Assembly (NCBI GenBank): GCA_029222685.1
Contig: JARHVB010000085.1
Location: 62,001 to 126,000 of the forward strand
Origin: Terripilifer ovatus
Lineage (GTDB): Bacteria > Pseudomonadota > Alphaproteobacteria > Rhizobiales > Beijerinckiaceae
Direction of reading: 5' to 3'
Length of the DNA: 64,000 bases
Shown here piece after piece: positions 2,689 through 36,258 of the stretch. A program made the translations under genes and the position numbers. The first letter of the stretch is position 1, and the number at the start of each line of letters is the position of its first letter. The notes beneath the pieces were generated by a model. It was not told where the DNA came from and did not search any database. It saw only the letters and a list, made by a program, of their open reading frames with translations.

Positions 2689-4194
2689 TCAATCGGCTTC
2701 GCTGAACACTTCCTCACGCTTCTGCCGGATGGAAGGAATGATCCCCATGCAAAACACAGCGAGCGCGATCACAAGGAAGGTCAGGCTGATCGGGCGGTCG
2801 AAAAAAATAGCCGCAGAGCCGCGCGACAGGATCATCGAGCGGCGTAGCTGGTCTTCGAGCATCGGGCCAAGCACGAAGCCCAGCAGAAGCGGCACGGGTT
2901 CGCATCCGAGCTTGATCAGCAGGTAGCCCAGGAGGCCGAAGACCGAAATCGAATACAGATCGAACGCGTTCGAATTGACGCTGAACACGCCGATCGTCGA
3001 GAAGGCGACGATGGCTGGAAACAGCACGTAGTAGGGAACGCTGAGCAGCTTCACCCAGATGCCCACCAGCGGCAGGTTGAGCAGCACCAGCATCAGATTG
3101 CCGACCCACATCGAGACGATGACGCCCCAGAACAGCGTTGGCTGCTCGACGACGATGTTTGGCCCCGGCACGATCCCCTGCATGATCATCGCGCCGATCA
3201 TCAGCGCCGAGACGGCATTGATCGGCAGGCCCAGGGTCAGCATCGGAATGAACGATGTCTGCGCTGCGGCATTGTTGGCGCTCTCCGGCGCCGCCACACC
3301 TTCGATCGCGCCTTTGCCGAACCGCTCCGGCGTTTTCGAGACCTTCTTTTCAACCATATAGGCTGCGAACGAGGACAGCACCGCGCCGCCGCCGGGCAGG
3401 ATACCCAGTGCCGAGCCGATCACGGTGCCGCGCAGGATCGGCGCGGTCATGGCGCGGATGTCTTCTCTGGTCGGCATCAGGCCGGTCACGCGGGTGATCA
3501 TCACGTCGCGTGTCTTTTCGTCCTCCAGGTTGCGCATGATTTCCGTCAGGCCGAACATGCCAACCGCAATCGAGATGATTTCGATGCCGTCGGCGAGTTC
3601 GAAGAAGCCCATGGTAAAGCGCGGCGTCGCCGTATAGCGATCGGTTCCGACAAGGCCGAGCAGGATGCCCAGAACCACCATCCCCAGGGCCTTTGATATG
3701 GCTCCCGAAGCGATGATAACCGACGCGACAAGTCCGAGTACCATCAGCGAGAAATACTCCGGCGGTCCGAATTTCAGAGCCACGGCGCTCAATGGCGGCG
3801 CCGCCACGGCGACGATCAGTGTCGCCACGGTTCCGGCAAAGAACGATCCAAGCGCCGCCGTGGCGAGCGCAGGCCCGGCTCGCCCCTGACGGGCCATCTG
3901 ATAGCCGTCAAGCGCAGTCACCGCCGATGACGATTCGCCCGGAAGATTGATCAGGATCGCCGTGATCGATCCGCCATATTGGGCACCGTAATAGATGCCC
4001 GCCATCATGATGAGGGCCGACGTCGGATCGAGCGCAAACGTCAACGGCAGCAGCATGGCGATGGTCGCCGTCGGACCGATGCCGGGCAGCACGCCGATGA
4101 GCGTTCCCACCAGGGTCCCGACGAAGCAGTACAGCAGCTTCGACGGCTGCAGGGCGATGGAAAAGCCGATGCCGAGATTGTTGAGAATATCCAT
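2689..4194 (-). CDS. tctA: Tripartite tricarboxylate transporter large membrane subunit TctA
   Basis: 501 residues, the family's normal size. It is a polytopic inner-membrane protein with the TctA signatures VLPGIGPTATIAMLLPLTF near the N-terminus, YYGAQYGGSITAILINLPGE around residue 70, and a second related half with LGILPGGGAVLSSFAAY and QTSFIPMLTLGLPINAVSA. TctA is the main permease of secondary, ion-driven uptake systems fed by a periplasmic TctC. It lies 4 bases downstream of tctB, with tctC upstream, forming one minus-strand operon tctC-tctB-tctA. The substrate is unknown; the family takes citrate, tartrate, aromatic acids and other carboxylates. Confidence 0.95.
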   Translation of the reverse strand: MDILNNLGIGFSIALQPSKLLYCFVGTLVGTLIGVLPGIGPTATIAMLLPLTFALDPTSALIMMAGIYYGAQYGGSITAILINLPGESSSAVTALDGYQMARQGRAGPALATAALGSFFAGTVATLIVAVAAPPLSAVALKFGPPEYFSLMVLGLVASVIIASGAISKALGMVVLGILLGLVGTDRYTATPRFTMGFFELADGIEIISIAVGMFGLTEIMRNLEDEKTRDVMITRVTGLMPTREDIRAMTAPILRGTVIGSALGILPGGGAVLSSFAAYMVEKKVSKTPERFGKGAIEGVAAPESANNAAAQTSFIPMLTLGLPINAVSALMIGAMIMQGIVPGPNIVVEQPTLFWGVIVSMWVGNLMLVLLNLPLVGIWVKLLSVPYYVLFPAIVAFSTIGVFSVNSNAFDLYSISVFGLLGYLLIKLGCEPVPLLLGFVLGPMLEDQLRRSMILSRGSAAIFFDRPISLTFLVIALAVFCMGIIPSIRQKREEVFSEAD

Positions 4195-4198
4195 TCGC

Positions 4199-4651
4199 TC
4201 AGCCGCCCAACCAAGGACCGATTAACGGGACCGGCAGGCCAAGCCCATAGCTGAACAGAACCACGCAGAAAGCCGCCAGCGACAGGCTGACTACGGCGGC
4301 ACGAAGCACGCTCATGTGCCGGCTCGCCAGCGCCGCACAGAAAACCGTCAGGACCAGCGATGGCGCCAGGCCAAGACCCACGATCGTGCTGCCGAAAATG
4401 ATCGGCGCGGCGCATGTGAAGAGAACCGCGCGCCACGACACGGCGCCGATGGAGTCGGGGCGCACGCCGATGCTGCGCAGTGCGATGAAGGCGCCGAGGA
4501 GAATGAGAATGCCTGCCAGGATCGGCGAAAAGAAGCCGGGCCCCATGCGCGACAGGGTTCCCCGTTCCAGGCCATAGCCTGCGAAGAGGAACCAGGCGCC
4601 GAGCGCGATAAAAATCCCGCCGGTGGCCGTATCTTTCCAGTTGACCAGCAT
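4199..4651 (-). CDS. tctB: Tripartite tricarboxylate transporter small membrane subunit TctB
   Basis: 150 residues with four hydrophobic segments. The start MLVNWKDTATGGIFIALGAWFLFAGYGLE and the RMGPGFFSPILAGILILLGAFIA segment are typical of TctB proteins, whose small subunit partners TctA in the membrane. It sits between tctC (39 bases upstream) and tctA (4 bases downstream). The ATG at 4651 has only a weak purine-rich ribosome site, fitting low expression of a membrane subunit. Confidence 0.92.
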   Translation of the reverse strand: MLVNWKDTATGGIFIALGAWFLFAGYGLERGTLSRMGPGFFSPILAGILILLGAFIALRSIGVRPDSIGAVSWRAVLFTCAAPIIFGSTIVGLGLAPSLVLTVFCAALASRHMSVLRAAVVSLSLAAFCVVLFSYGLGLPVPLIGPWLGG

Positions 4652-4690
4652 GGATCTCTCAATGCCTCCGTGGATACGACAACCGAGTCG

Positions 4691-5674
4691 TCATTTCATC
4701 TGGATCTTGGCGGCTTCTATGACGCCGCTCCAGCTTTTCACTTCCGACCGCATGTGGGCGGCAAGCTGCTCGGGCGTGCTGGCAATCAGTTCGAAGCCGA
4801 ACTTCGTGGCCCTTTCGATAACGTCGGGCTGGGCCAGCCCCTTCGCCACGTCTGCTTGAATCTTGTCGACAAGGGGCTTTGGCATATTGGCGGGTCCATA
4901 GAGCCCATACCAGGCGCCGCTGGTAAACCCCGGCAGTCCTGCCTCATCCATCGTCGGCACGTCCGGCGCATTGCTCAGCCGCTTTTTTGCCGATGTCGCC
5001 AGCGCCCTGACCTTTCCGGCCTTGTACTGTTCGAGCGAGTCGGGGGATTGAAAGCCAAATGCGGCCTCGCCGGTGATGATGGCGGTCAGCGCCTGCGGCG
5101 CCGAATTATACGGAACGTGCACCAGATCAACGCCGGTTCGCATCTTGAAACGCTCGCCGGTGAGATGCGGCATGTTTCCGGTCCCGGTCGAAGAGTAATT
5201 GAGCTGGCCGGGTCTCGCCTTCGCATAGGCGATGAACTCCTGCAGGGTCTTCACCGGAACTTCGGGATTGACGAGCGCGATCGTCGCAACGTTCGACAGA
5301 TGCGAGATCGGCGTCAGGTCCTTCAATGCGTCATAGGGCGGCTTCTCCGGCAGCAGGCTCTGGAAGATGACGATCGGGCTGGCGTGAGACACCAGCAGTG
5401 TATAGCCGTCCGGTGCGGATTTGGTGACAGCCTGCACCGCAAGAACGCCGCCTGCGGCGCCGCGATTATCGACGACCACCTGGTAGCCGACACGCTGCAG
5501 GACTTCAGCCACAAGGCGGGCGTTATAATCAGTCGGGCCGCCGGCAGCGGTGGCGACGATGATGCGAACCGGCTTGCCCGGGAAGTTAGCCTGAGCCGCC
5601 GCGGGCAGCGCCTGCAGGCTCAGCGCAGCGGCCAGCAGGACCGCAAACTGGATCGGCGCACATGGCTTGCGCAT
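4691..5674 (-). CDS. tctC: Tripartite tricarboxylate transporter binding protein TctC (Bug family)
   Basis: 327 residues. A signal peptide (MRKPCAPIQFAVLLAAALSL... AAA) precedes the Bug fold: FPGKPVRIIVATAAGGPTDY, VVDNRGAAGGVLAVQAV, a GYTLLVSHASP strand and YSSTGTGNMPHLTGERF. It delivers its ligand to TctAB, encoded directly downstream. The ATG at 5674 is preceded by a GGGGGAAG ribosome site; a longer frame reaching 5809 has no signal peptide at its start and runs into the divergent promoter region. It is the only one of six Bug proteins in the window next to its own membrane subunits. Confidence 0.93.
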   Translation of the reverse strand: MRKPCAPIQFAVLLAAALSLQALPAAAQANFPGKPVRIIVATAAGGPTDYNARLVAEVLQRVGYQVVVDNRGAAGGVLAVQAVTKSAPDGYTLLVSHASPIVIFQSLLPEKPPYDALKDLTPISHLSNVATIALVNPEVPVKTLQEFIAYAKARPGQLNYSSTGTGNMPHLTGERFKMRTGVDLVHVPYNSAPQALTAIITGEAAFGFQSPDSLEQYKAGKVRALATSAKKRLSNAPDVPTMDEAGLPGFTSGAWYGLYGPANMPKPLVDKIQADVAKGLAQPDVIERATKFGFELIASTPEQLAAHMRSEVKSWSGVIEAAKIQMK

Positions 5675-5728
5675 CGGTGCTTCCCCCCAAATCTCTTCTT
5701 CCGCAAAGTGTCGCACGCGGCTGGGGGG

Positions 5729-5746
5729 CCGTCCATTTCTGGACGG
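5729..5746. promoter_or_regulatory. 18-bp perfect inverted repeat, candidate operator
   Basis: CCGTCCATTTCTGGACGG has 7-base arms around a TTTC centre. It lies in the 154-base divergent gap, 55 bases before the tctC start on one side and 82 bases before the CoA-transferase start on the other, where one regulator could control both units. The nearest regulator is the LysR gene at 8805. Function is inferred from position and symmetry only. Confidence 0.45.
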
Positions 5747-5828
5747 TGAACCGCCTGCTTCTCGTTTGGAACTTGCCACCCGCGCTGGCCGACACCATGG
5801 TCCAGCCATAACAGTCAGGGAGGCCGGA

Positions 5829-7082
5829 ATGGCTCAGTCGACCATGAATTCGACATCCGCCAGCGCAGATACAAAGCAGGCCGCACTGGCCGGCATCAGG
5901 GTTGTCGACTTCACCCAGTTCGAGGCGGGACCGGCCTGCACCGAGACTCTGGCATGGCTCGGCGCCGACGTGATCAAGGTGGAACCGATCAACGGCGAGC
6001 AGAGCCGCAAGGCCTCGGCGGCCAGGGCCAACGAAGACTCGTCCTATTTCATGCTTCTCAATGCCAACAAGCGCAGCGTCACCTGCAATCTGAAGAACCC
6101 CGCCGGGCTCGCCCTGGTGATCGACCTGATCAAACAGTCCGATATCCTGGTCGAGAATTTCGGCCCCGGTGTCATCGAGCGTCTGGGGCTGGGCTATGAA
6201 GAGGTTCGCAAGATCAACCCGCGCATCATCTTCGCGCAGATCAAGGGCTTTGCCCCTGATGGTCGCTGGGCCGACTATCTGGCCTTCGACATGATCGCCC
6301 AGGCTGTCGGCGGCGCCATGTCGATCACCGGCGAGCGCGACGGCCAGCCGATGAAGTCGAGCGCGACGATCGGAGATACCGGCTCGGGTATTCACACCGT
6401 TGTCGGCATTCTCGCGGCGCTCTATCAGCGCGAGAGAACCGGCGTCGGCCAACGGGTCGAAGTGGTGATGCAGGAAGTCGTCGCCAATTTTTGCCGTGTC
6501 TCCTTCGCCAGCAACATGCTGCATGACAAGGCCGCCGAGCGGAACGGCAATCAGAGCGTCCTGGCCTCGACGGCGCCGAGCGGCGCCTATCCCTGCGCCG
6601 GTGGCGGCCTGAACGATTACTGCTTCATCTATTCCACCCGCGCCGGCAGCCGCCACTGGGAACGCATCCTGTCCATGATCGGCCGCGACGACCTGCAGAA
6701 TGACGAGCGCTTCGCCAGCCCGGAGGCCAGGTACAGGAACCGAGCCGTCATCGACGAGATGATCAGCGCCTGGACCAGACAGCATGACAAGTTCGAGGTC
6801 ATGCGCATCTGTGGTGAAAACGGCGTTCCCGCCGGTCCCGTCCTCGACACCAAGGATCTGCAGGAAGATCCCGACATGCTGCGGCGTGGGATGTTCGTCA
6901 CCGTGACGCATCCCTCGCAGGGCGATTTCATCATGCCGGGATTTCCGGTGAAGCTGTCGGAGTCAGAGGTCAAGGTCGTCTGCTCGCCGGTTCTCGGCGC
7001 CGATACGAACGACGTCTATGGCGGTCTCCTCGGGCGCACGCCTGAACAGATCGAAGCCTTGCGGCGTGAGAAAGCGATCTGA
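5829..7082 (+). CDS. CaiB/BaiF-family (class III) CoA-transferase
   Basis: 417 residues, normal for the family that includes formyl-CoA:oxalate and carnitine CoA-transferases. Early motif LAGIRVVDFTQFEAGPACTE, then LGADVIKVEP, VENFGPGVIERLGL and the central IGDTGSGIHTVVGILAALY; Asp183 in that segment aligns with the catalytic aspartate that forms the acyl-anhydride with substrate. The ATG at 5829 was chosen because the conserved domain begins about 20 residues later. It ends 2 bases before the ThDP enzyme gene, so the two are cotranscribed. Together they suggest activation of a 2-hydroxy- or 2-oxo-acid to its CoA ester followed by C-C cleavage; the actual acid is not determined by sequence. 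Confidence 0.92.
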   Translation: MAQSTMNSTSASADTKQAALAGIRVVDFTQFEAGPACTETLAWLGADVIKVEPINGEQSRKASAARANEDSSYFMLLNANKRSVTCNLKNPAGLALVIDLIKQSDILVENFGPGVIERLGLGYEEVRKINPRIIFAQIKGFAPDGRWADYLAFDMIAQAVGGAMSITGERDGQPMKSSATIGDTGSGIHTVVGILAALYQRERTGVGQRVEVVMQEVVANFCRVSFASNMLHDKAAERNGNQSVLASTAPSGAYPCAGGGLNDYCFIYSTRAGSRHWERILSMIGRDDLQNDERFASPEARYRNRAVIDEMISAWTRQHDKFEVMRICGENGVPAGPVLDTKDLQEDPDMLRRGMFVTVTHPSQGDFIMPGFPVKLSESEVKVVCSPVLGADTNDVYGGLLGRTPEQIEALRREKAI

Positions 7083-7084
7083 AC

Positions 7085-8731
7085 ATGAAAATCACCGGTT
7101 CGGCCCTCCTGTCCCGTGCGTTGAAACGCCAGGGCGTCGATGTGATGTTCTTCATCATGGGCGCGCCGACCCACGATGCCGGCCGCAGCATCATCGCCGA
7201 CGGAATCAGGCTTGTGGACGTGCGGCACGAACAGGCCGGCGCGATGATGGCGCATGCCTATGCGCGGTTGCGCGGCAGGCCCGGTGTCTGCATGGGTGCA
7301 TCCGGCCCCGGCACGATCAATCTCACCACGGGCCTTGCCAATGCGCTCGTCGATTGCGCGCCGGTCGTGGCATTGGGCGGCGCGGCGCCGGTCGCTCAAT
7401 ATGCCATGGGCGCGTTCCAGGAGATCGATCAGGTCGCCATCATGAAGCCGGTGACAAAATGGGCCGAGCGCGTCTACGACGCACGCCGCATTCCCCAATA
7501 TGTCGCGACCGCATTCGCCACCGCCATGGCCGGCAAGCCCGGTCCTGTCTATCTCGATCTTCCCGGCGATGTGCTGGCGCAGGAGGTCGAGGAGGACGAC
7601 ATCCGCTGGCCTGTCACGCCCAAAGGTGATCTTTTTTCGCGCCCGGCCGCAGCGCCGGACGATATCGCCAGAATTGTCGCCCTGCTTGGAGAGGCCAAGA
7701 AACCGCTCATTCTGTCGGGATCCGGCATCCTTTATTCCGGCGCTGCCAGCCAGTTGCAGGGCTTGATCGAGAAGGCCGGAATTCCGTTCTATACGACGCC
7801 TCAGGGGCGCGGTGTCGTGCCGGAAGATCATCCGTATTTCTTTGGCGCGGCACGTTCCACCGCGTTGAAGGAGGCCGATCTGGTGCTGGTCGTCGGCACG
7901 AGGCTGAACTACGTCTTCAGCTTCGGCCGTCCGCCCGCCTTCTCGCCATCGGCCAAATTCATCCGCATCGATATCGATGCCGCGGAGATCAACGCCAGTA
8001 CGCGCCTGACCCTCGGAATCGTCGCCGACGCGCGCACCGCACTCGAACAGTTGAGCGCCGCGCTCGACGGCAAGGTCTCGCCGCAGACTTACGAAGCCTG
8101 GCGCACGCACCTGCACGAGCTTGACGAGAAGCGCAAACAGTCGAACGAAAAGCTGCTCGCGACGGACGAGATGCCCATCCATCCGCTGCGCCTGTGCAGG
8201 GAAGTCCGCGATTTCATCCGCCGCGATACGATCCTGGTTGTCGATGGACAGGAAATCCTCAACTACGGTCGTCAGGCTATTCCCTCCTTCACGCCAGGGC
8301 ATCGGCTAAATTCCGGCACGTTCGGCACCATGGGCGTGGGCTTACCTTTCGGCATCGGCGCCAAGGCGGCCAAGCCCCATGCGGATGTCGTGGTCTTGCA
8401 CGGCGACGGCTCTTTCGGCCTGAACGCCATGGAGCTCGATACGTCCATCCGCCATAAACTGCCGGTTCTCGTCGTCATCAGCCTCAACGGCGGCTGGACC
8501 GGCGATCCCGAACGCACCAAGCCTGGTCGGGATCTGGGCTACACCCGTTTCGACAGGATGGCGGAAGCGCTTGGCTGCCATGGCGAATATGTCGAACGCT
8601 CGGACGACATCAGGCCCGCCCTGGAACGCGCAGCCAAAGCCGTCGCCAACGGTCAGACGGCGGTCGTCAATGTCGTGACGGACTGGCGGGCAAGGGCCGA
8701 AATGCGGGCTTTCACCAGCGCCAAAACCTGA
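7085..8731 (+). CDS. Thiamine-diphosphate enzyme, oxalyl-CoA decarboxylase / 2-hydroxyacyl-CoA lyase type
   Basis: 548 residues with the three-domain plan of acetolactate-synthase relatives. The N-terminal PYR domain has the activating glutamate (VRHEQAGAMMAHAYAR, Glu49) and GASGPGTINLTTGLANA. The central domain includes KPLILSGSGILY. The C-terminal PP domain carries the ThDP/metal motif HGDGSFGLNAMELDTS (Gly-Asp-Gly about residues 440-442) continuing to SLNGGW. The pairing with a class III CoA-transferase 2 bases upstream favours an acyl-CoA substrate (oxalyl-CoA decarboxylase or 2-hydroxyacyl-CoA lyase) over branched-chain amino-acid synthesis; no regulatory small subunit is nearby. The exact reaction is inference. 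Confidence 0.88.
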   Translation: MKITGSALLSRALKRQGVDVMFFIMGAPTHDAGRSIIADGIRLVDVRHEQAGAMMAHAYARLRGRPGVCMGASGPGTINLTTGLANALVDCAPVVALGGAAPVAQYAMGAFQEIDQVAIMKPVTKWAERVYDARRIPQYVATAFATAMAGKPGPVYLDLPGDVLAQEVEEDDIRWPVTPKGDLFSRPAAAPDDIARIVALLGEAKKPLILSGSGILYSGAASQLQGLIEKAGIPFYTTPQGRGVVPEDHPYFFGAARSTALKEADLVLVVGTRLNYVFSFGRPPAFSPSAKFIRIDIDAAEINASTRLTLGIVADARTALEQLSAALDGKVSPQTYEAWRTHLHELDEKRKQSNEKLLATDEMPIHPLRLCREVRDFIRRDTILVVDGQEILNYGRQAIPSFTPGHRLNSGTFGTMGVGLPFGIGAKAAKPHADVVVLHGDGSFGLNAMELDTSIRHKLPVLVVISLNGGWTGDPERTKPGRDLGYTRFDRMAEALGCHGEYVERSDDIRPALERAAKAVANGQTAVVNVVTDWRARAEMRAFTSAKT

Positions 8732-9819: not shown

Positions 9820-10860
9820 CTACTTTCCCGCGGCGTCTCCATTGGCGATACGCCGCAGGCGTGCAACCACGGCAGCCGGCGTCGCGTAGGCATGGCTGAC
9901 GATCTTCTCGGTCTGCTCGGCCGTGCGAGGCACATTCACGCCGAGCTTGAGCCGATCGGCCTCCTGGAGGAACGCCGGATCGACAAACGTTTCGGCCAGG
10001 GCAGTCCTCATGAGTCTGACGCGATCATCCGCAACACCCGGCGGCATCAGATACGGTCGCCCAAGCGCCAGCGGTGCGATTGCTGCCTGAAGCAGCAACC
10101 TGTCTTCGTCATTCTTCAGGAAGTCTCTGACATTCGGTGTTGCACCAAGCTCTTTTTCGTTCTCGGGGCCGTATTGAACGATGAACTTGATCTTCCGATC
10201 GCGGACCCAGTCCGGCTTGGTCGCCGAAAGCGAGCTCCAGAAGATGCTCGGATATCCGTCGACTTCGCCTCGCTCCATCGCCATGAAGCTCTCGGTCTGT
10301 CCCGGATATCCCAACACCGTTTTCAGTTTGAGACCCAGCAGTTCGTTGAGCAGTCTGGCATAGAAGGCAGGCGTCGAGTTCGCGCCTGAGATTGCCACAG
10401 TCACGGGCTTCTGCCGGAGATCCGCCACCGTGTTGGCGTCGACGCTGTGCCAGACGATCAGGAGACCGGTCTCGTAGCTCGGGCTGCCGAGCCAGTTGAT
10501 CTTCTTCGGATCGTAATCTGCTTCTTTCGTACCGAGCAACGGCTCGAACGGTGTATTGTTCTGCACGCTTCCGATCGTCAGGCCATCTTTAGGCGCAACA
10601 TTGACCAGATAGTTCGTGGCGACGATGCCGCCGGCACCGGGCATATTGCGCACCACGATGGTAGGCGCGCCAGGTATCTGCTTCGGCAGATGGCGAGCAA
10701 TGGTACGGGCCAGAAGATCATATCCACCGCCGGCGCTTGAACTGACAATAAGATTGACGACCTTGCCTTTGTAAAAATCGGCGCCCTGTTGTGCCGGGAC
10801 GGCAGTCGAGCTTGCGACCAGAATGGCCAGTCCCGCAGCGATGACACTCGATCTTAGCAT
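9820..10860 (-). CDS. Bug/TctC-type periplasmic binding protein, orphan
   Basis: 346 residues with signal peptide (MLRSSVIAAGLAILVASSTAVPAQQ). It carries the long-form Bug signatures FYKGKVVNLIVSSSAGGGYD, LLARTIARHLPKQIPGAPT and VVRNMPGAGGIVATNYL, plus a Tyr-Pro-Gly strand region (LGYPGQTESFMAMERGEVDG). This subfamily (also 13627 and 26754 here) differs from the classical TctC by the YDL-A-R and PG-PT motifs. It faces away from the asparaginase-fold gene, sharing a 296-base divergent region. No membrane subunits are adjacent; it may feed the TctAB at 2.7-4.7 kb or act in ligand sensing. Confidence 0.9.
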   Translation of the reverse strand: MLRSSVIAAGLAILVASSTAVPAQQGADFYKGKVVNLIVSSSAGGGYDLLARTIARHLPKQIPGAPTIVVRNMPGAGGIVATNYLVNVAPKDGLTIGSVQNNTPFEPLLGTKEADYDPKKINWLGSPSYETGLLIVWHSVDANTVADLRQKPVTVAISGANSTPAFYARLLNELLGLKLKTVLGYPGQTESFMAMERGEVDGYPSIFWSSLSATKPDWVRDRKIKFIVQYGPENEKELGATPNVRDFLKNDEDRLLLQAAIAPLALGRPYLMPPGVADDRVRLMRTALAETFVDPAFLQEADRLKLGVNVPRTAEQTEKIVSHAYATPAAVVARLRRIANGDAAGK

Positions 10861-11156: not shown

Positions 11157-12836
11157 GTGAGCAAGCTTCTGAAAATCGCCCATCTGTCCGGCCCCACCGC
11201 GACAATCCAGAATTCGCCGCCACTGGTGACATCGAACAAGGCCCGCAAGAAGCACAATCTTCAACTGCTGACCGACGAATACGATGCCTTGCGTCCGCAA
11301 CGTCTCGCAGCGCCGGTTAAAGTCTACGTCGAACAGTTCTCCGCGCATCCGCTTGAGGAGGATGCGGACGATCTCTATGCCGCACCCGACGGCTATCTCG
11401 ACGGAGCGGGACGGTTTTCCGACACCCGCAGGAGTCCGAACGACCGCCCCGTTTATGAAATCGAACTTCTGCCCGAAGACGGTCTTTATCCCTTGCCGTA
11501 CATGGCGCGCCAGAGCGATGGCTCGCCCTGGGAAGAGGAATGCGCTTTCGCCGGTGCGCCCGCTGAAAAGGCGCGGCAGGGATTTTATCCCGACGGCTCG
11601 CGTGTCTTCGAGGAGATAGACAGGCTCGGCGTCAATGCCGAAGGAAAGGCGTCGACGATCTCGAATATGGCTTCGGTCTCTTTTTTCCGGGTCATGCCGC
11701 CGTCTGGTTTTGTAAAGGGATTGGCGTCGGACAAGCGTCAGGATCAGGGCGAGGGAGATATCGTTCCGGAAACACGCGGGCAGGATTTTTTCCCCTACAA
11801 GCCCCGTCATCTCTCGGCGCAGCCGCCGCGGCCTGCACTGGCGCGGCTCACCAACCGCGTGCATGGCATTCTCGCCCAAGGAGATTTTGATGGTGCGGTC
11901 TGGACGCAAGGCAGCCCGAACATCGAAGACTCGGTCTACTGGTTCAATCTTCTGATCGACACGACCATTCCGATTGCTGGAAACGCCGCCCAGCGACCGC
12001 ACGGCGAAATGAGTGCGGACGGCTCGCGAAACATCATCGACTCGATTTCATATATCAAATCGCGTGCCTGGGCCGACCAGAACGGGCACAACCGCTTCGG
12101 CACGGTGCTGGTTCAGGATCAGCTCATCCATGCCGCCCGGGACGTGGTCAAAGGCGATGCCAGGCCGGGCGGTTATGTCGTCACCGGTGGCATGGGTGGT
12201 ATCATCGGCCAGCTCGGTCATAAAAGCCGATGCTTCGTGAAATATGTTCCCGATTACAAGCACACGTTCCGCTCCGACGTGCGGCTGACCGTGCTGCCCG
12301 AAACGACCCGGGCCGTGACGCGCGAGAACGGGCACCTCTCCCATGTCGAAGTGCCCATCAAAACCGCGGAGGGCCTGCTGCGTGAAGACGCCATTCCATC
12401 GGTGTCCATCGTCAAGGACGGCGGCTACTGCGGTATGGAATGGGACGCGTCGTCCGAACACGAGGTCGATCTCGTCGCGCTGATCGACCACAAGCTGTCC
12501 CTGAAGCGCCTCACCGGCCTGGTGGTCGAGGGAACCGCCCCCAACGGCAACATGACGTCATCCGCGCGCATGCGGCTGATTGCACGAGCCGCTTTTTGCG
12601 GGATTCCCACGGTCCGCGTCGGCCGTGGCACGCCAAATGGCTTTGTCGACGATCATCCCTTCCTGATCGCCGGCTCCAACCTGACATCGACCAAAGCGCG
12701 CCTGCTGCTGATGGCCTGCCTGATGCGGTTCGGCAGCGGGCCGATAGCTGCCGATCCAGCCAATCCGACGGATGCCGAAAAATCCGCGCTGTCTGAATTT
12801 GTCCGCCGGTATCAGGAGGTTTTCGATACACATTGA
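11157..12836 (+). CDS. Divergent asparaginase/glutaminase-fold enzyme with large N-terminal insertion
   Basis: 559 residues against about 330-350 for ordinary type I/II asparaginases. The fold is recognisable from residue 230: LTNRVHGILAQGDFDGAVWT then QGSPNIEDSVYWFNLLID (normally the HGTD..EET segment), IPIAGNAAQRPHGEMSADGS and VLVQDQLIHAARDVVKGD with Lys332 matching the catalytic lysine, and a C-terminal domain with LTGLVVEGTAPNGNM. The first strand (KIAHLSGPTATIQN) probably supplies the N-terminal catalytic Thr. The usual Thr-Asp pair is replaced by Ser253-Pro254. Residues about 30-225 are an insertion unlike any domain I can name, rich in Asp/Glu/Pro. The GTG start has GGCGGAG before it. 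Substrate unknown; an amide or imide hydrolase is plausible but the altered pair could mean another reaction. Confidence 0.75.
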   Translation: MSKLLKIAHLSGPTATIQNSPPLVTSNKARKKHNLQLLTDEYDALRPQRLAAPVKVYVEQFSAHPLEEDADDLYAAPDGYLDGAGRFSDTRRSPNDRPVYEIELLPEDGLYPLPYMARQSDGSPWEEECAFAGAPAEKARQGFYPDGSRVFEEIDRLGVNAEGKASTISNMASVSFFRVMPPSGFVKGLASDKRQDQGEGDIVPETRGQDFFPYKPRHLSAQPPRPALARLTNRVHGILAQGDFDGAVWTQGSPNIEDSVYWFNLLIDTTIPIAGNAAQRPHGEMSADGSRNIIDSISYIKSRAWADQNGHNRFGTVLVQDQLIHAARDVVKGDARPGGYVVTGGMGGIIGQLGHKSRCFVKYVPDYKHTFRSDVRLTVLPETTRAVTRENGHLSHVEVPIKTAEGLLREDAIPSVSIVKDGGYCGMEWDASSEHEVDLVALIDHKLSLKRLTGLVVEGTAPNGNMTSSARMRLIARAAFCGIPTVRVGRGTPNGFVDDHPFLIAGSNLTSTKARLLLMACLMRFGSGPIAADPANPTDAEKSALSEFVRRYQEVFDTH

Positions 12837-12948: not shown

Positions 12949-13596
12949 CTACATATCGTCGAAATAGCTGCGCACGCTCTTATCGGCCGCCTGCACTTCC
13001 GGGCCTTCATACGGCATGCCCACTTCCATGGTCTCGTACCCGGCGGCGAACATATTGACGTAAGGCGCGCCGCAGAAGGCGACGGGTTTCACCTTGTCCC
13101 AGACGAGATAGCCCTTGGCATCGACCAGGCCCTTGTGCACCGACGCGCCCAGGACATTGCCGACGATCATCGCGCGGTTCAGCCACTCCTTGACCCAGAC
13201 GACCTCGCATTCGAAATGACGGGTGCATTCGAGAATGCGCGGCGCCTTGACGAATTGCGACGGCAGTGCCGTCAGGCCGGCCTTCTCCAGCTCGTTGACG
13301 CCTTTGGCGAACGGCAATCCGACGACCCGCACCTTCTCGAGAATATCGCGCTCGAACGACGGCAGGTTCACGACGAACTGGTTGGTCGCCTTGATGTTGG
13401 CGGCCGTCTGTCCCGCCGCTGCCGTCGTAAAGGCGATCTGCACCGGATTGTGGACGATGCGAACCGTGGTCGCATAGGACGCCGCATTGACGCGGCCTTC
13501 CTCGTCAACGGTCGTGATCATCGACGCATGGCCGCCCGGCGCAAACAGGCGGTCCCAATATTTCTCCGGCTGGTAGACGACATCTTCGGCGTTCAT
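12949..13596 (-). CDS. Flavin reductase-like FMN-binding split-barrel protein
   Basis: 215 residues, cytoplasmic, no signal. The N-terminal half carries the split-barrel pattern of the flavin-reductase-like family: GHASMITTVDEEGRVNAASYATTVRIVHNPVQIAF, then IKATNQFVVNLPSFERDIL. Members are FMN-dependent reductases or simply FMN-binding oxidoreductases. GAGGAGAACCC precedes the ATG at 13596. It is on the minus strand 30 bases downstream of a Bug gene (same operon) and convergent with the asparaginase-fold gene. It could supply reduced flavin to an oxygenase, but no flavin-dependent monooxygenase is encoded nearby. Confidence 0.85.
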   Translation of the reverse strand: MNAEDVVYQPEKYWDRLFAPGGHASMITTVDEEGRVNAASYATTVRIVHNPVQIAFTTAAAGQTAANIKATNQFVVNLPSFERDILEKVRVVGLPFAKGVNELEKAGLTALPSQFVKAPRILECTRHFECEVVWVKEWLNRAMIVGNVLGASVHKGLVDAKGYLVWDKVKPVAFCGAPYVNMFAAGYETMEVGMPYEGPEVQAADKSVRSYFDDM

Positions 13597-13626: not shown

Positions 13627-14661
13627 TCAGTCTTGTCGAACGGCTGCCTTCGCCCGCTCGACGATGGCCGGCGGATAGGCATAGAAGCGGTCGATCAGCT
13701 TCTGCACGTCTTCGCCGGCCGTGGGTTTGAGATCGAGCTGCAGTTTCTCGGCTTCGGCGACGAACTGCGGATCCTTGATCGTCTCGGCGAAGCCCCTGCG
13801 CAGGGCGGCGACGCGCTCTGGCGGCGTGCCCGGCGGCGCGGCATAGGGGCGTCCGTTCGCCTGCGCGCCGAAGATCAGGTCGAGGACCTGCCGGTCTTCC
13901 GGGGTCTTGGCAAAATCATAGACGTGCGGAACGTCCTTCAGCTCCGGATTCTTGTTCAATCCCAGTTGCAGCAGCGGCTTGATGCGTCCGGAAGTGAAGT
14001 CGTCGCGCCATTCGGTCTTCAGGGTCGAAAGCGGGATGCCGCAGACGCCGTTGACCTCGCCGCGAAGAATGGCGAGCCGCACATCGGCCGAGCCTTTGTA
14101 CCCCTGGACGAGCTTCAACTTCATCCCGAGAAGATTGCGGACACCGCGCGCCGATTGCGACAGCGGCCCGCCGACGCCCGCGCCCGCGGCGCCGACAAGC
14201 ACTTCTTTCGTGTACAGATCCTCGATCTTCTTGATCCCCGCCTCGGGAGAAAACGAGCATGTCCCGGTGACTTCGTCGAGGTTGCCGATCCAGTTGAATT
14301 TCGACGGGTCGAATTTGCCGCCCGACGCGCCGAGCAGCGGGTCGACGGAAGCGGTATGGGCGAAGGTGGCGATCACCGACCCGTCGCGCGGCGCCACATT
14401 TGCAAGCCAGATAGCGCTGGCAAGTCCCGCCGCGCCGACCATGTTCTGCGTGATGACCGTCGGTTGCCCGGGCACGTGTTTGCCTAGATAGCGCGCCACG
14501 GTGCGGGCATAAAGATCGTATCCCGTGCCCACTTCATGGCCGACGACGATGCTGAGCGTGCGGCCGTGGTAGAAAGTTTCGACAGCCTGTTGCGCGGATG
14601 CGCCGGCAGCGGCCAGGATGGTCAGGCTTGTCACGCAAGCAACGGTAATGAATCGGCGCAT
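13627..14661 (-). CDS. Bug/TctC-type periplasmic binding protein, orphan
   Basis: 344 residues with signal peptide ending ASAQQ. Long-form Bug motifs: FYHGRTLSIVVGHEVGTGYD, LYARTVARYLGKHVPGQPT, VITQNMVGAAGLASAIWL, and YAAPPGTPPERVAALRRGFAE near the C-terminus. A GGGAGT site lies upstream of the ATG. It is transcribed just ahead of the flavin-reductase gene and diverges from the Bug/GMC pair across a 187-base gap. No permease is adjacent. Confidence 0.9.
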   Translation of the reverse strand: MRRFITVACVTSLTILAAAGASAQQAVETFYHGRTLSIVVGHEVGTGYDLYARTVARYLGKHVPGQPTVITQNMVGAAGLASAIWLANVAPRDGSVIATFAHTASVDPLLGASGGKFDPSKFNWIGNLDEVTGTCSFSPEAGIKKIEDLYTKEVLVGAAGAGVGGPLSQSARGVRNLLGMKLKLVQGYKGSADVRLAILRGEVNGVCGIPLSTLKTEWRDDFTSGRIKPLLQLGLNKNPELKDVPHVYDFAKTPEDRQVLDLIFGAQANGRPYAAPPGTPPERVAALRRGFAETIKDPQFVAEAEKLQLDLKPTAGEDVQKLIDRFYAYPPAIVERAKAAVRQD

Positions 14662-14848
14662 TCTTAGTCAACTCCCTGGCGGCTCGTCTCGTGCGAACTC
14701 GCGTGCGATCCTAAGTGGTTTACCCGCGCCGATCAAATGATGGGCTGCCGCCCGCGCTCGTTTCTCAAATCCGCGCATTGGCGAAGCACGGCAAGCTTGT
14801 TAGCATGCTCAAAATACGATCGAATAATAATGCATGAGGAGGAAGCAA

Positions 14849-15835
14849 ATGAATCGTCTCCGGAACGTCGCGCGGATCATGTCGCTCGCCGTGGGTCTCC
14901 ACGTCGGCGCGGGCTTGTTCATCAGCAGCGCCAATGCCCAGACGTTTCCATCGGAAGACTTTCATTTCATCGTCGGCTTCCCACCCGGCAGCGGCGCCGA
15001 CGTGCTGACCCGCTTCTTCGCGGCGAAACTGCAGGCCGTCTCCGGCCGCACCGTCATCGTCGAGAACCGGACGGGCGCCGCCGGCAATATCGCGACGGAA
15101 GCGGTCGCCCGCGCCAAGCCCGATGGTCATACGCTGCTGCTTGGCGCCGGCAGCGCCATTGCCGCCGGCATGTATCTGTTCAAGAATCCCACGGTCGATG
15201 TGACGAAAGCCTTCCAGATCGCCGCGACTCTCAATCGCCAGGCCTTCATGCTGACGGTCGACGCCAAATCGCCGTACAAAACCGTGGCGGAATTGACGGC
15301 CGGCATGAAGGCGAAAGGCGACAAGGCGAGCTATGCGACGACGGCAGCGACCGGCATCGTGCTGGGCGAGATGTACAAGAGCATCACCGGCGTGCAGGCG
15401 GTCGAAGTGCGCTACAGGGGCGCGGCTGAGGCGCTGCCGGAACTGGCCGCGGGCAGGCTCGATTACGGCTCGTTCGATCCCGCCTTTACCCTCGCCCAGT
15501 TTCGCGCCGGACGTCTGCGCATTCTCGCGCAATCCTCCGCGCAGCCTCTGAAGGCTCTGGAAGGCATCCCGACCATGGAAGCCGCCGGCGTACCGGGCAT
15601 CGATCTCACATCCTGGTGGGCCATCCACGCGCCGATCGCGACGCCGCGCGCCAACATCGACAAGCTCAATGCCTGGTTCAAGCAGATTTTGACGGACCCG
15701 GAGACGGCGAAATTCCTCGGCGATCTTGGCGGCGATGTCTTCATCAGCACGCCGGACGATGCGCAGGCGCTCTTCATCAGGGAAGAGAAGGCCTGGAAGG
15801 AATATGTGCGGATTGCCAAAATCGATCCGCAATGA
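14849..15835 (+). CDS. Bug/TctC-type periplasmic binding protein coupled to a GMC oxidoreductase
   Basis: 328 residues, classical Bug type: signal peptide ending SSANA, then FPSEDFHFIVGFPPGSGADV, VIVENRTGAAGNIATEAVAR and GHTLLLGAGSA. The ATG at 14849 was chosen over 14834 because GAGGAGG is placed correctly only for the former. Its TGA overlaps the ATG of the next gene in an ATGA junction, so the binding protein and the oxidoreductase are translationally coupled. No permease is adjacent, so either TctAB at 2.7 kb serves it or the ligand is sensed rather than transported. Confidence 0.9.
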   Translation: MNRLRNVARIMSLAVGLHVGAGLFISSANAQTFPSEDFHFIVGFPPGSGADVLTRFFAAKLQAVSGRTVIVENRTGAAGNIATEAVARAKPDGHTLLLGAGSAIAAGMYLFKNPTVDVTKAFQIAATLNRQAFMLTVDAKSPYKTVAELTAGMKAKGDKASYATTAATGIVLGEMYKSITGVQAVEVRYRGAAEALPELAAGRLDYGSFDPAFTLAQFRAGRLRILAQSSAQPLKALEGIPTMEAAGVPGIDLTSWWAIHAPIATPRANIDKLNAWFKQILTDPETAKFLGDLGGDVFISTPDDAQALFIREEKAWKEYVRIAKIDPQ

Positions 15836-31341: not shown

Positions 31342-31814
31342 CCCTCCTTCGCTGGAGCTCCGGAGGGCATCTTGCTTCATCCTGCGAAGCGCGCAGCGCG
31401 AAGCAGGACGTTGCCTTTTCGCCAAATCGTGGGCGTTTTTCGCAGCGCCGGATTCCGGCTAGTCGTCGCGCGTGAATACGCCTAAACGCGCGCTCCCGCT
31501 CGCCAAGCGGCGCGGATATCAGCGGATGGAGTTCAAAGCCTCCTCCTGTGCAGGCGGCTCTGCCGTTCTGTATGCGGATGCTGCGCCGAAGGTCGGAACG
31601 CGGATATAGCTCAAGGGGAGAGCGCCGGCATAGCCGGAGGTTGTGGGTTCGATTCCCGATATTTCATTTCAGTTTGCCGAAATTTTTCGGCGAATGTCGG
31701 CGAACAACGTAAAGCTGCCTTAACCGCGCTTTCATGATTGGTTTTACCGTAGTAGCTTGGAATGCCCGAGTCCATTTATCGATGCGTTAAGCAACGCGCT
31801 TCGACTAGGTGGCA
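31342..31814. other. 473-base gap: hairpin, tRNA-like remnant, no gene
   Basis: No supported coding sequence. Near 31374-31405 an imperfect TCCTGC...GCAGGA hairpin could end the CMD-family transcript. The tRNA-like sequence at 31600-31666 is listed separately. Bases 31667-31814 are AT-richer and probably hold the promoter of the TadE/G-like gene. Confidence 0.5.
31600..31666 (+). pseudogene. tRNA-like remnant with collapsed anticodon loop
   Basis: The strand reads like a tRNA: acceptor GCGGATA, TA, D-arm GCTC-AAGGGGA-GAGC, then CCGGC-ATA-GCCGG, a variable AGGTT, and T-arm GTGGG-TTCGATT-CCCGA. The anticodon hairpin has a perfect 5-base stem but a loop of only three bases instead of seven, so no readable anticodon exists. 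The acceptor ends TATTTCA, pairing only partly with GCGGATA, and the T-stem has one mismatch; no CCA follows. It is best read as a decayed tRNA gene or tRNA-derived scar. Confidence 0.6.
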
Positions 31815-36168: not shown

Positions 36169-36258
36169 TGGCGGAGGGAGCGGGATTCGAACCCGCGATA
36201 CGGTTTCCCGTATACACACTTTCCAGGCGTGCGCCTTCAACCACTCGGCCACCCCTCC
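36169..36258 (-). tRNA. tRNA-Ser, anticodon GGA
   Basis: Minus strand reads GGAGGGGTGGCCGAGTGG... with a CGCCTGGAAAGTGTG anticodon arm (anticodon GGA, serine), a long variable arm TACGGGAAACCGTA typical of class II tRNAs, the T-arm GCGGG-TTCGAAT-CCCGC, and acceptor TCCCTCC-G followed by an encoded CCA. Reads UCC and UCU codons. Confidence 0.97.

Follow-up and report, generated by a model that had tools for sequence, protein, structure and literature searches.

The genome of Terripilifer ovatus encodes a 559-residue protein of a family with a predicted two-domain asparaginase fold in which, as judged from aligned residues, the class-1 catalytic triad Thr-Lys-Asp is Ser-Lys-Pro. The family also carries a conserved extra segment, and about 150–165 of its residues have no counterpart in asparaginases. 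This combination, with QGSP in place of HGTD, is not an oddity of one genome. We consider the protein to be probably a cytoplasmic amidohydrolase of class-1 fold whose substrate is an imported amide, not asparagine, from which it liberates ammonia or a small amine; the hydrolase activity, the roles of the residues, the place and role of the extra segment, the class of substrate and the location in the cell are all inferred. The gene lies in a stretch of 64,000 nucleotides, here called the window.

11157..12836, plus strand: gene for a putative hydrolase of asparaginase fold (559 aa, GTG start), identified by PF00710, phmmer, AlphaFold, Foldseek, a paralog and 80 genome loci

The gene is a single open frame of 559 codons, and its relatives start at about the same position as its GTG codon. 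Because no signal peptide was seen on inspection by eye, the protein is taken as cytoplasmic. The same genome (G000) holds a paralog of 563 residues that is 59% identical over its whole length.

Several comparisons agree on the fold. Pfam matched PF00710 (Asparaginase) over its cut-off at residues 228-334 (E 7.6e-9), while the NCBIfam asparaginase models stayed far under theirs (60.8 versus 314.3 for TIGR00520, and 45.5 versus 506 bits for another). The top sequence match in the PDB was the asparaginase 2wlt (phmmer, E 1.4e-13), and a profile of the family aligned with a profile of 34 canonical asparaginases at a probability of 99.6% (E 9.1e-24). These 34 were aligned from 46 of 47 canonical-type loci retained by a script that required HG[TS]D, so the conservation of HGTD in the canonical set is not independent of this selection. 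An AlphaFold model calculated with the family alignment reached a pLDDT of 87.2 and a pTM of 0.88; residues 42-46 and 285-288 scored below 50, the latter being part of the conserved SADG stretch. Foldseek gave 251 PDB matches at E ≤0.001, the best being E. coli asparaginase II with an E-value of 5.9e-15 and a target-normalized TM-score of 0.74; the best 50 of them were asparaginase entries from E. coli and Erwinia/Dickeya; the 6pae titles among these matches give organism and ligand only. A preliminary description made from the DNA alone had proposed an asparaginase scaffold, which the model and the Foldseek search bear out. The stretch GNAAQRPHGEMSADG, Lys332 and GTAPNGNM, which it had cited as marks of this scaffold, are all present in the protein, although APNGN is atypical of the family, with Tyr at position 463 in 78 of the 84 aligned proteins. 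That residue lies in the C-terminal part of the protein.

12507..12725, plus strand: C-terminal domain (PF17763 match at residues 451-523, below cut-off), holding Asn463

The residues of the putative active site were counted in an 84-row alignment (82 distinct sequences) of the window protein, three whole-genome loci and 80 genome-contig loci. In class-1 asparaginases the nucleophile is Thr12 and the triad is Thr89-Lys162-Asp90 (PMC12951835); Thr12, Tyr25, Thr89, Asp90 and Lys162 are listed in another account (PMC8256714).

11169..11204, plus strand: strand 1 and the GPTAT loop (model strand at residues 5-11)
11202-11204, plus strand: Thr16, likely counterpart of Thr12, the E. coli asparaginase II nucleophile (84/84; profile alignment)
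11913..11918, plus strand: Ser253-Pro254, replacing Thr89-Asp90 (Ser 84/84, Pro 83/84; alignment to 2wlt)
12150..12152, plus strand: Lys332, counterpart of Lys162 (84/84 rows; PDB alignment)

In the phmmer alignment to 2wlt, TQGSP faces THGTD and Lys332 faces the catalytic Lys. Ser253, Lys332 and Thr16 are invariant in all 84 rows, as are Arg280 and Asp288, and Pro254 is found in all rows except that of locus L132, which has Ser. With no variation at positions 253 and 332 and almost none at 254, the aligned residues indicate that the triad of class 1 is Ser-Lys-Pro in this family. The relatives were found with two peptide patterns, GPTATIQN and YVEQFSAH. Ser253, Pro254 and Lys332 lie outside both patterns; Thr16 lies inside the first, so its conservation is in part selected. 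The replacement of the Thr-Asp pair of HGTD by Ser253-Pro254, which the preliminary description had noticed, thus recurs in the homologues, and none of the 84 rows has an intact Thr-Asp. The pair that it called altered makes up two of three triad residues, and the usual nucleophile Thr seems to be kept as Thr16. The invariance of Thr16 and the profile alignment, which pairs Thr16-Ile17 with the Thr-Ile of GGTI, make it the likely counterpart of Thr12; a gapless alignment to Thr12 falls two residues before Thr16. Position 14 is Thr in 55 of the 84 rows and Asn in 26. Residues 17-53 hold no conserved Tyr, and residue 33 is the only one there to be Tyr in more than 20 of the 84 rows.

The second feature that sets the family apart is the extra segment.

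11316..11336, plus strand: probable strand 2, VKVYVEQ, residues 54-60 (model strand 54-59; weak local profile match)
11337..11831, plus strand: conserved extra segment (residues 61-225), including a short stretch that corresponds to a normal loop (148-170 residues in 84 rows)

The segment counts 165 residues in 53 of the 84 rows and 163 in 24. Conservation averages 0.75 over residues 21-225, with 42 of 205 columns invariant, and 0.79 over residues 226-340, with 18 of 115 invariant, so that the segment is conserved nearly as strongly as the core; the conservation of YVEQFSAH, which runs into the segment, is partly selected because this was a search pattern. Segment 61-225 of the window protein had no Pfam match at E up to 1, and a segment profile built on 63 of the 84 rows had no match in the PDB better than E = 1, in keeping with the earlier view that the inserted sequence belongs to no known family. 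Five Pfam families touched one to three of the 63 rows weakly (best E 0.051) and were taken as chance matches.

The position of the extra residues was judged from the model, which has strands at residues 5-11, 54-59 and 246-250 and a helix at 226-240 before the last of these. Asparaginases have the order strand 1, strand 2, helix, strand 3, with a substrate-binding Ser right after strand 2. Because the elements of the model follow this order, the extra residues are probably placed after strand 2, between residues 60 and 225; the short model strands 97-104 and 172-178 are alternative readings as strand 2. In a local profile comparison, residues 49-65 matched canonical residues 40-56 weakly (P 0.18), and the statistically weak resemblance there is of VEQF in strand 2 to VEEF of one canonical relative. 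Placing the insertion from sequence alone was tried and given up: hhalign runs with parts of the profile left out gave close scores, both local (171.4 without residues 62-210, 169.6 without 68-225 and 166.2 without 20-170) and global, where the cut of 20-180 scored best (163.9 versus 162.7 for 62-210). The preliminary description was correct that there is an insertion; it had given it about 195 residues and put it after the first strand, and our estimate is about 150–165 residues, probably after the second.

The spread of the family is wide yet patchy. A draw of 397 genomes at the level of the order contained a full-length relative in six, the genome of origin included, and any match to the window protein in 75 by an insensitive search; a draw of 398 genomes at the level of the phylum contained a full-length relative in the genome of origin only. 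A first scan of species-genome contigs with the single protein as query confirmed no relatives, and a scan with a seven-sequence alignment confirmed 166, of which 80 were analyzed in detail. These 80 are mostly from Alphaproteobacteria, with a few labelled Beta-, Gamma- or Deltaproteobacteria, three bins of Rokubacteria and one actinobacterial bin. Four of 72,556 plasmid records contained a relative matched over 80% or more of the length, and none was confirmed in the viral scan. Our search of the open-access literature found neither a description of this long-form family nor the name "asparaginase domain-containing protein", and no characterized relative was found.

The gene has no immediate neighbour on its own strand in the window, being flanked by a divergent gene on one side and a convergent one on the other, and co-transcription is therefore not supported there.

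9820..10860, minus strand: TctC binding protein, divergent neighbour
12949..13596, minus strand: flavin reductase domain protein, convergent neighbour
13627..14661, minus strand: TctC-like binding protein (below Pfam cut-off)
14834..15835, plus strand: TctC binding protein

Genes for a CoA transferase, a ThDP enzyme and a LysR regulator lie upstream. The CoA transferase and the ThDP enzyme together take up 5667-8731. The former resembles formyl-CoA transferase, below cut-off (403.9 versus 442), and the ThDP enzyme resembles oxalyl-CoA decarboxylase or 2-hydroxyacyl-CoA lyase, also below cut-off (387.1 versus 557). An oxalate pathway was considered as a clue to the substrate and rejected: being below the curated cut-offs, and with relatives near none and three of 47 family loci, respectively, the two enzymes were not used to name a substrate. 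By eye, a tripartite tricarboxylate transporter adjoins them at 2689-5809 on the minus strand; NCBIfam at 1e-10 gave no match for 2692-4194. Elsewhere in the window, ARAGORN and Rfam agree on a tRNA-Ser at 36169-36258, and a weak Rfam tRNA match at 31600-31666 (31.1 bits) was not called by ARAGORN.

Neighbourhoods of relatives were compared over about 9 kb around the gene in the 47 of 80 loci with at least 8 kb on each side, the 33 with less on a side being left out of these counts, and in 40 random stretches drawn from five carrier genomes (G000, G099, G155, G230 and G278). With close copies among the 47 counted more than once, and with query proteins that come from family loci, several of them inside the 47, each adding a self-match, an importer binding protein of any kind was found near 34 of 47 loci versus 4 of 40 random stretches, leaving 13 loci without one by this test; an amidase was near 19 versus 2, an acetamidase/formamidase near 15 versus 1, urease alpha near 11 versus none, and a flavin monooxygenase of any kind near 8 versus 1. 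TctC genes as a class did not differ significantly (7/47 versus 2/40). None of the 47 loci has a neighbour like the flavin reductase, the CoA transferase or the LysR regulator of the window. The preliminary description had placed the gene in a transporter/reductase cluster. TctC proteins and a flavin reductase do adjoin it, but the reductase is not a conserved neighbour, since no similar reductase lies within about 9 kb of any of the 80 relatives; many have amidases, acetamidase/formamidase or urease in their surroundings instead.

The relatives thus show two main contexts, amidase-urease and flavin monooxygenase, which need not have one substrate in common. The first is seen in Rhizobium tumorigenes pRt932, where three amidases, a peptide-type importer, an acetamidase/formamidase, the family gene and urease lie together; the binding protein, permeases, ATPases, acetamidase/formamidase, family gene (4 bp overlap) and urease genes have the same direction. 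The second is seen in Agrobacterium vitis, with an importer, two flavin-dependent monooxygenases, a small protein and the family gene; a monooxygenase of NtaA/DmoA type is among its neighbours, and a flavin reductase lies at a greater distance. At L072 (7516-17134), the family gene lies between two luciferase-like monooxygenases of the NtaA/DmoA kind, together with a TctC protein and, by the look of the sequence, genes for a short-chain dehydrogenase and a Rieske-type oxygenase; this region is a candidate pathway cluster.

The window copy clusters with L066 and L072 in the tree of the family alignment (support 99), and TctC genes lie close to each of the three. A protein resembling the TctC at 9820-10860 occurs near six of the 80 relatives (L064, L066, L067, L072, L074 and L079) and in one of the 40 random stretches; five of the six fall in a 13-row group with the window copy (support 97), of which L079 is the tree neighbour. 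The window copy differs from the family at 11 columns with a conservation of 90% or higher, for example with Met346 where 80 of 84 rows have His, and Asn463. Since Tyr occupies the latter column in most rows, Asn463 and its APNGN are special to this copy. At least 11 such changes occur in 17 of the 84 rows, the window copy counted. Its substrate may differ from that of the rest of the family.

The retention of the catalytic Ser, Lys and Thr favours an active hydrolase, most likely an amidohydrolase that works by covalent attack as class-1 asparaginases do. Thr16, in the loop that follows strand 1, would attack the carbonyl, with Ser253 in the place of Thr89 and Lys332 in that of Lys162. Asp90 of class-1 asparaginases also binds the amino group of the substrate; Pro254 at this position would remove a triad member and lead to poor binding of free asparagine, while the extra segment, probably right after strand 2, would form a lid or pocket wall and confer a new specificity. 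The loss of the Asp and the conservation of the new segment disfavour asparagine as the substrate, and the importers, amide hydrolases and urease nearby favour the stripping of nitrogen from an imported compound. A bolder proposal, which we advance tentatively, is that the family forms an amidohydrolase class of its own, built on the asparaginase fold: Ser-Lys and residues of the inserted segment would replace Thr-Lys-Asp, and the enzyme would act on an imported amide or ring that is not an amino acid (ureide, imide or lactam), whose nitrogen is removed either jointly with acetamidase/formamidase and urease or once a flavin-dependent oxidation has taken place.

That the protein is still an asparaginase/glutaminase, or acts on an asparagine derivative, with Pro254 tolerated and the amino-group contact given by the insertion, appears unlikely to us. 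Thr16, Ser253 and Lys332 would all fit such an enzyme, as would Asn463 in APNGN of the window copy, an Asn also present in GTGNGS, the canonical consensus. The protein may also have a part in asparagine use, because G000 lacks any canonical class-1, class-2 (PF01112) or class-3 (PF06089) asparaginase at E ≤0.001, its only PF00710 matches being the two long forms; canonical class-1 enzymes are likewise absent from four of five other long-form genomes tested. The absence of canonical enzymes says little, however, because an insensitive search with the window protein matched no more than 75 of the 397 order-level genomes. The triad Asp is missing in 83 of 84 rows, and many relatives adjoin amidase, urease or monooxygenase genes, which argues against an asparaginase. 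A catalytically dead relative serving as a sensor or scaffold is a very improbable reading: the missing Asp and the changes at conserved columns of the window copy, such as Met346 for His, would suit it, whereas the five residues invariant in all 84 rows and the lack of any DNA-binding or signalling domain in the Pfam search speak against it.

The flavin-dependent context raises another reading, a hydrolase of cyclic imides, lactams or ureides whose substrates would be rings made by flavin-dependent or molybdenum oxygenases. The monooxygenases at the Agrobacterium vitis locus and on both sides of the gene in L072, which groups with the window copy, are consistent with it, as is the excess of flavin monooxygenases over the random stretches; a molybdenum hydroxylase lies near four of 80 relatives versus none of 40 stretches, its query having come from one of the four. 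On the other hand, 39 of the 47 loci have no flavin monooxygenase and the window has a flavin reductase alone near the gene, and we know of no asparaginase-fold enzyme that opens such rings. We regard this reading as doubtful, and retain the amidohydrolase acting on an imported amide.

Among known systems, the family is closest to the class-1 (type II) L-asparaginases of the E. coli AnsB type (PF00710, TIGR00520), with which it shares the fold, Lys332 for Lys162, Ser253 at the position of Thr89, the likely equivalence of Thr16 and Thr12, AQRP of the AMRP type and the SADG stretch. It differs from them in Pro for Asp90, in the segment of 148-170 residues, in the low TIGR00520 score of the window protein and in the lack of a conserved Tyr after the GPTAT loop. 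In type I enzymes the active-site Tyr25 comes from another subunit, and short-chain (type s) asparaginases have no C-terminal domain and retain the T-K-D triad (PMC12951835). The family shares the class-1 core with type s, unlike which the window protein has a C-terminal domain match, below cut-off, and has lost the triad Asp. GatD, the Glu-tRNA amidotransferase subunit, has an asparaginase-like core plus added sequence and is matched weakly (1zq1, E 0.033), whereas the extra segment of our family gave nothing in the PDB below E = 1. By match, the RefSeq/GenBank proteins named "asparaginase domain-containing protein" (e.g. WP_278332718.1) are the same family; this is a domain-level name with no function attached, and the label may mislead. 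The nucleophile of class-1 asparaginases, which are used as drugs, was for a long time a matter of dispute (PMC12951835). A natural family without the triad Asp may reveal the purpose of that residue, and the genes that accompany it in operons indicate an uncharted pathway by which organic nitrogen is taken up.
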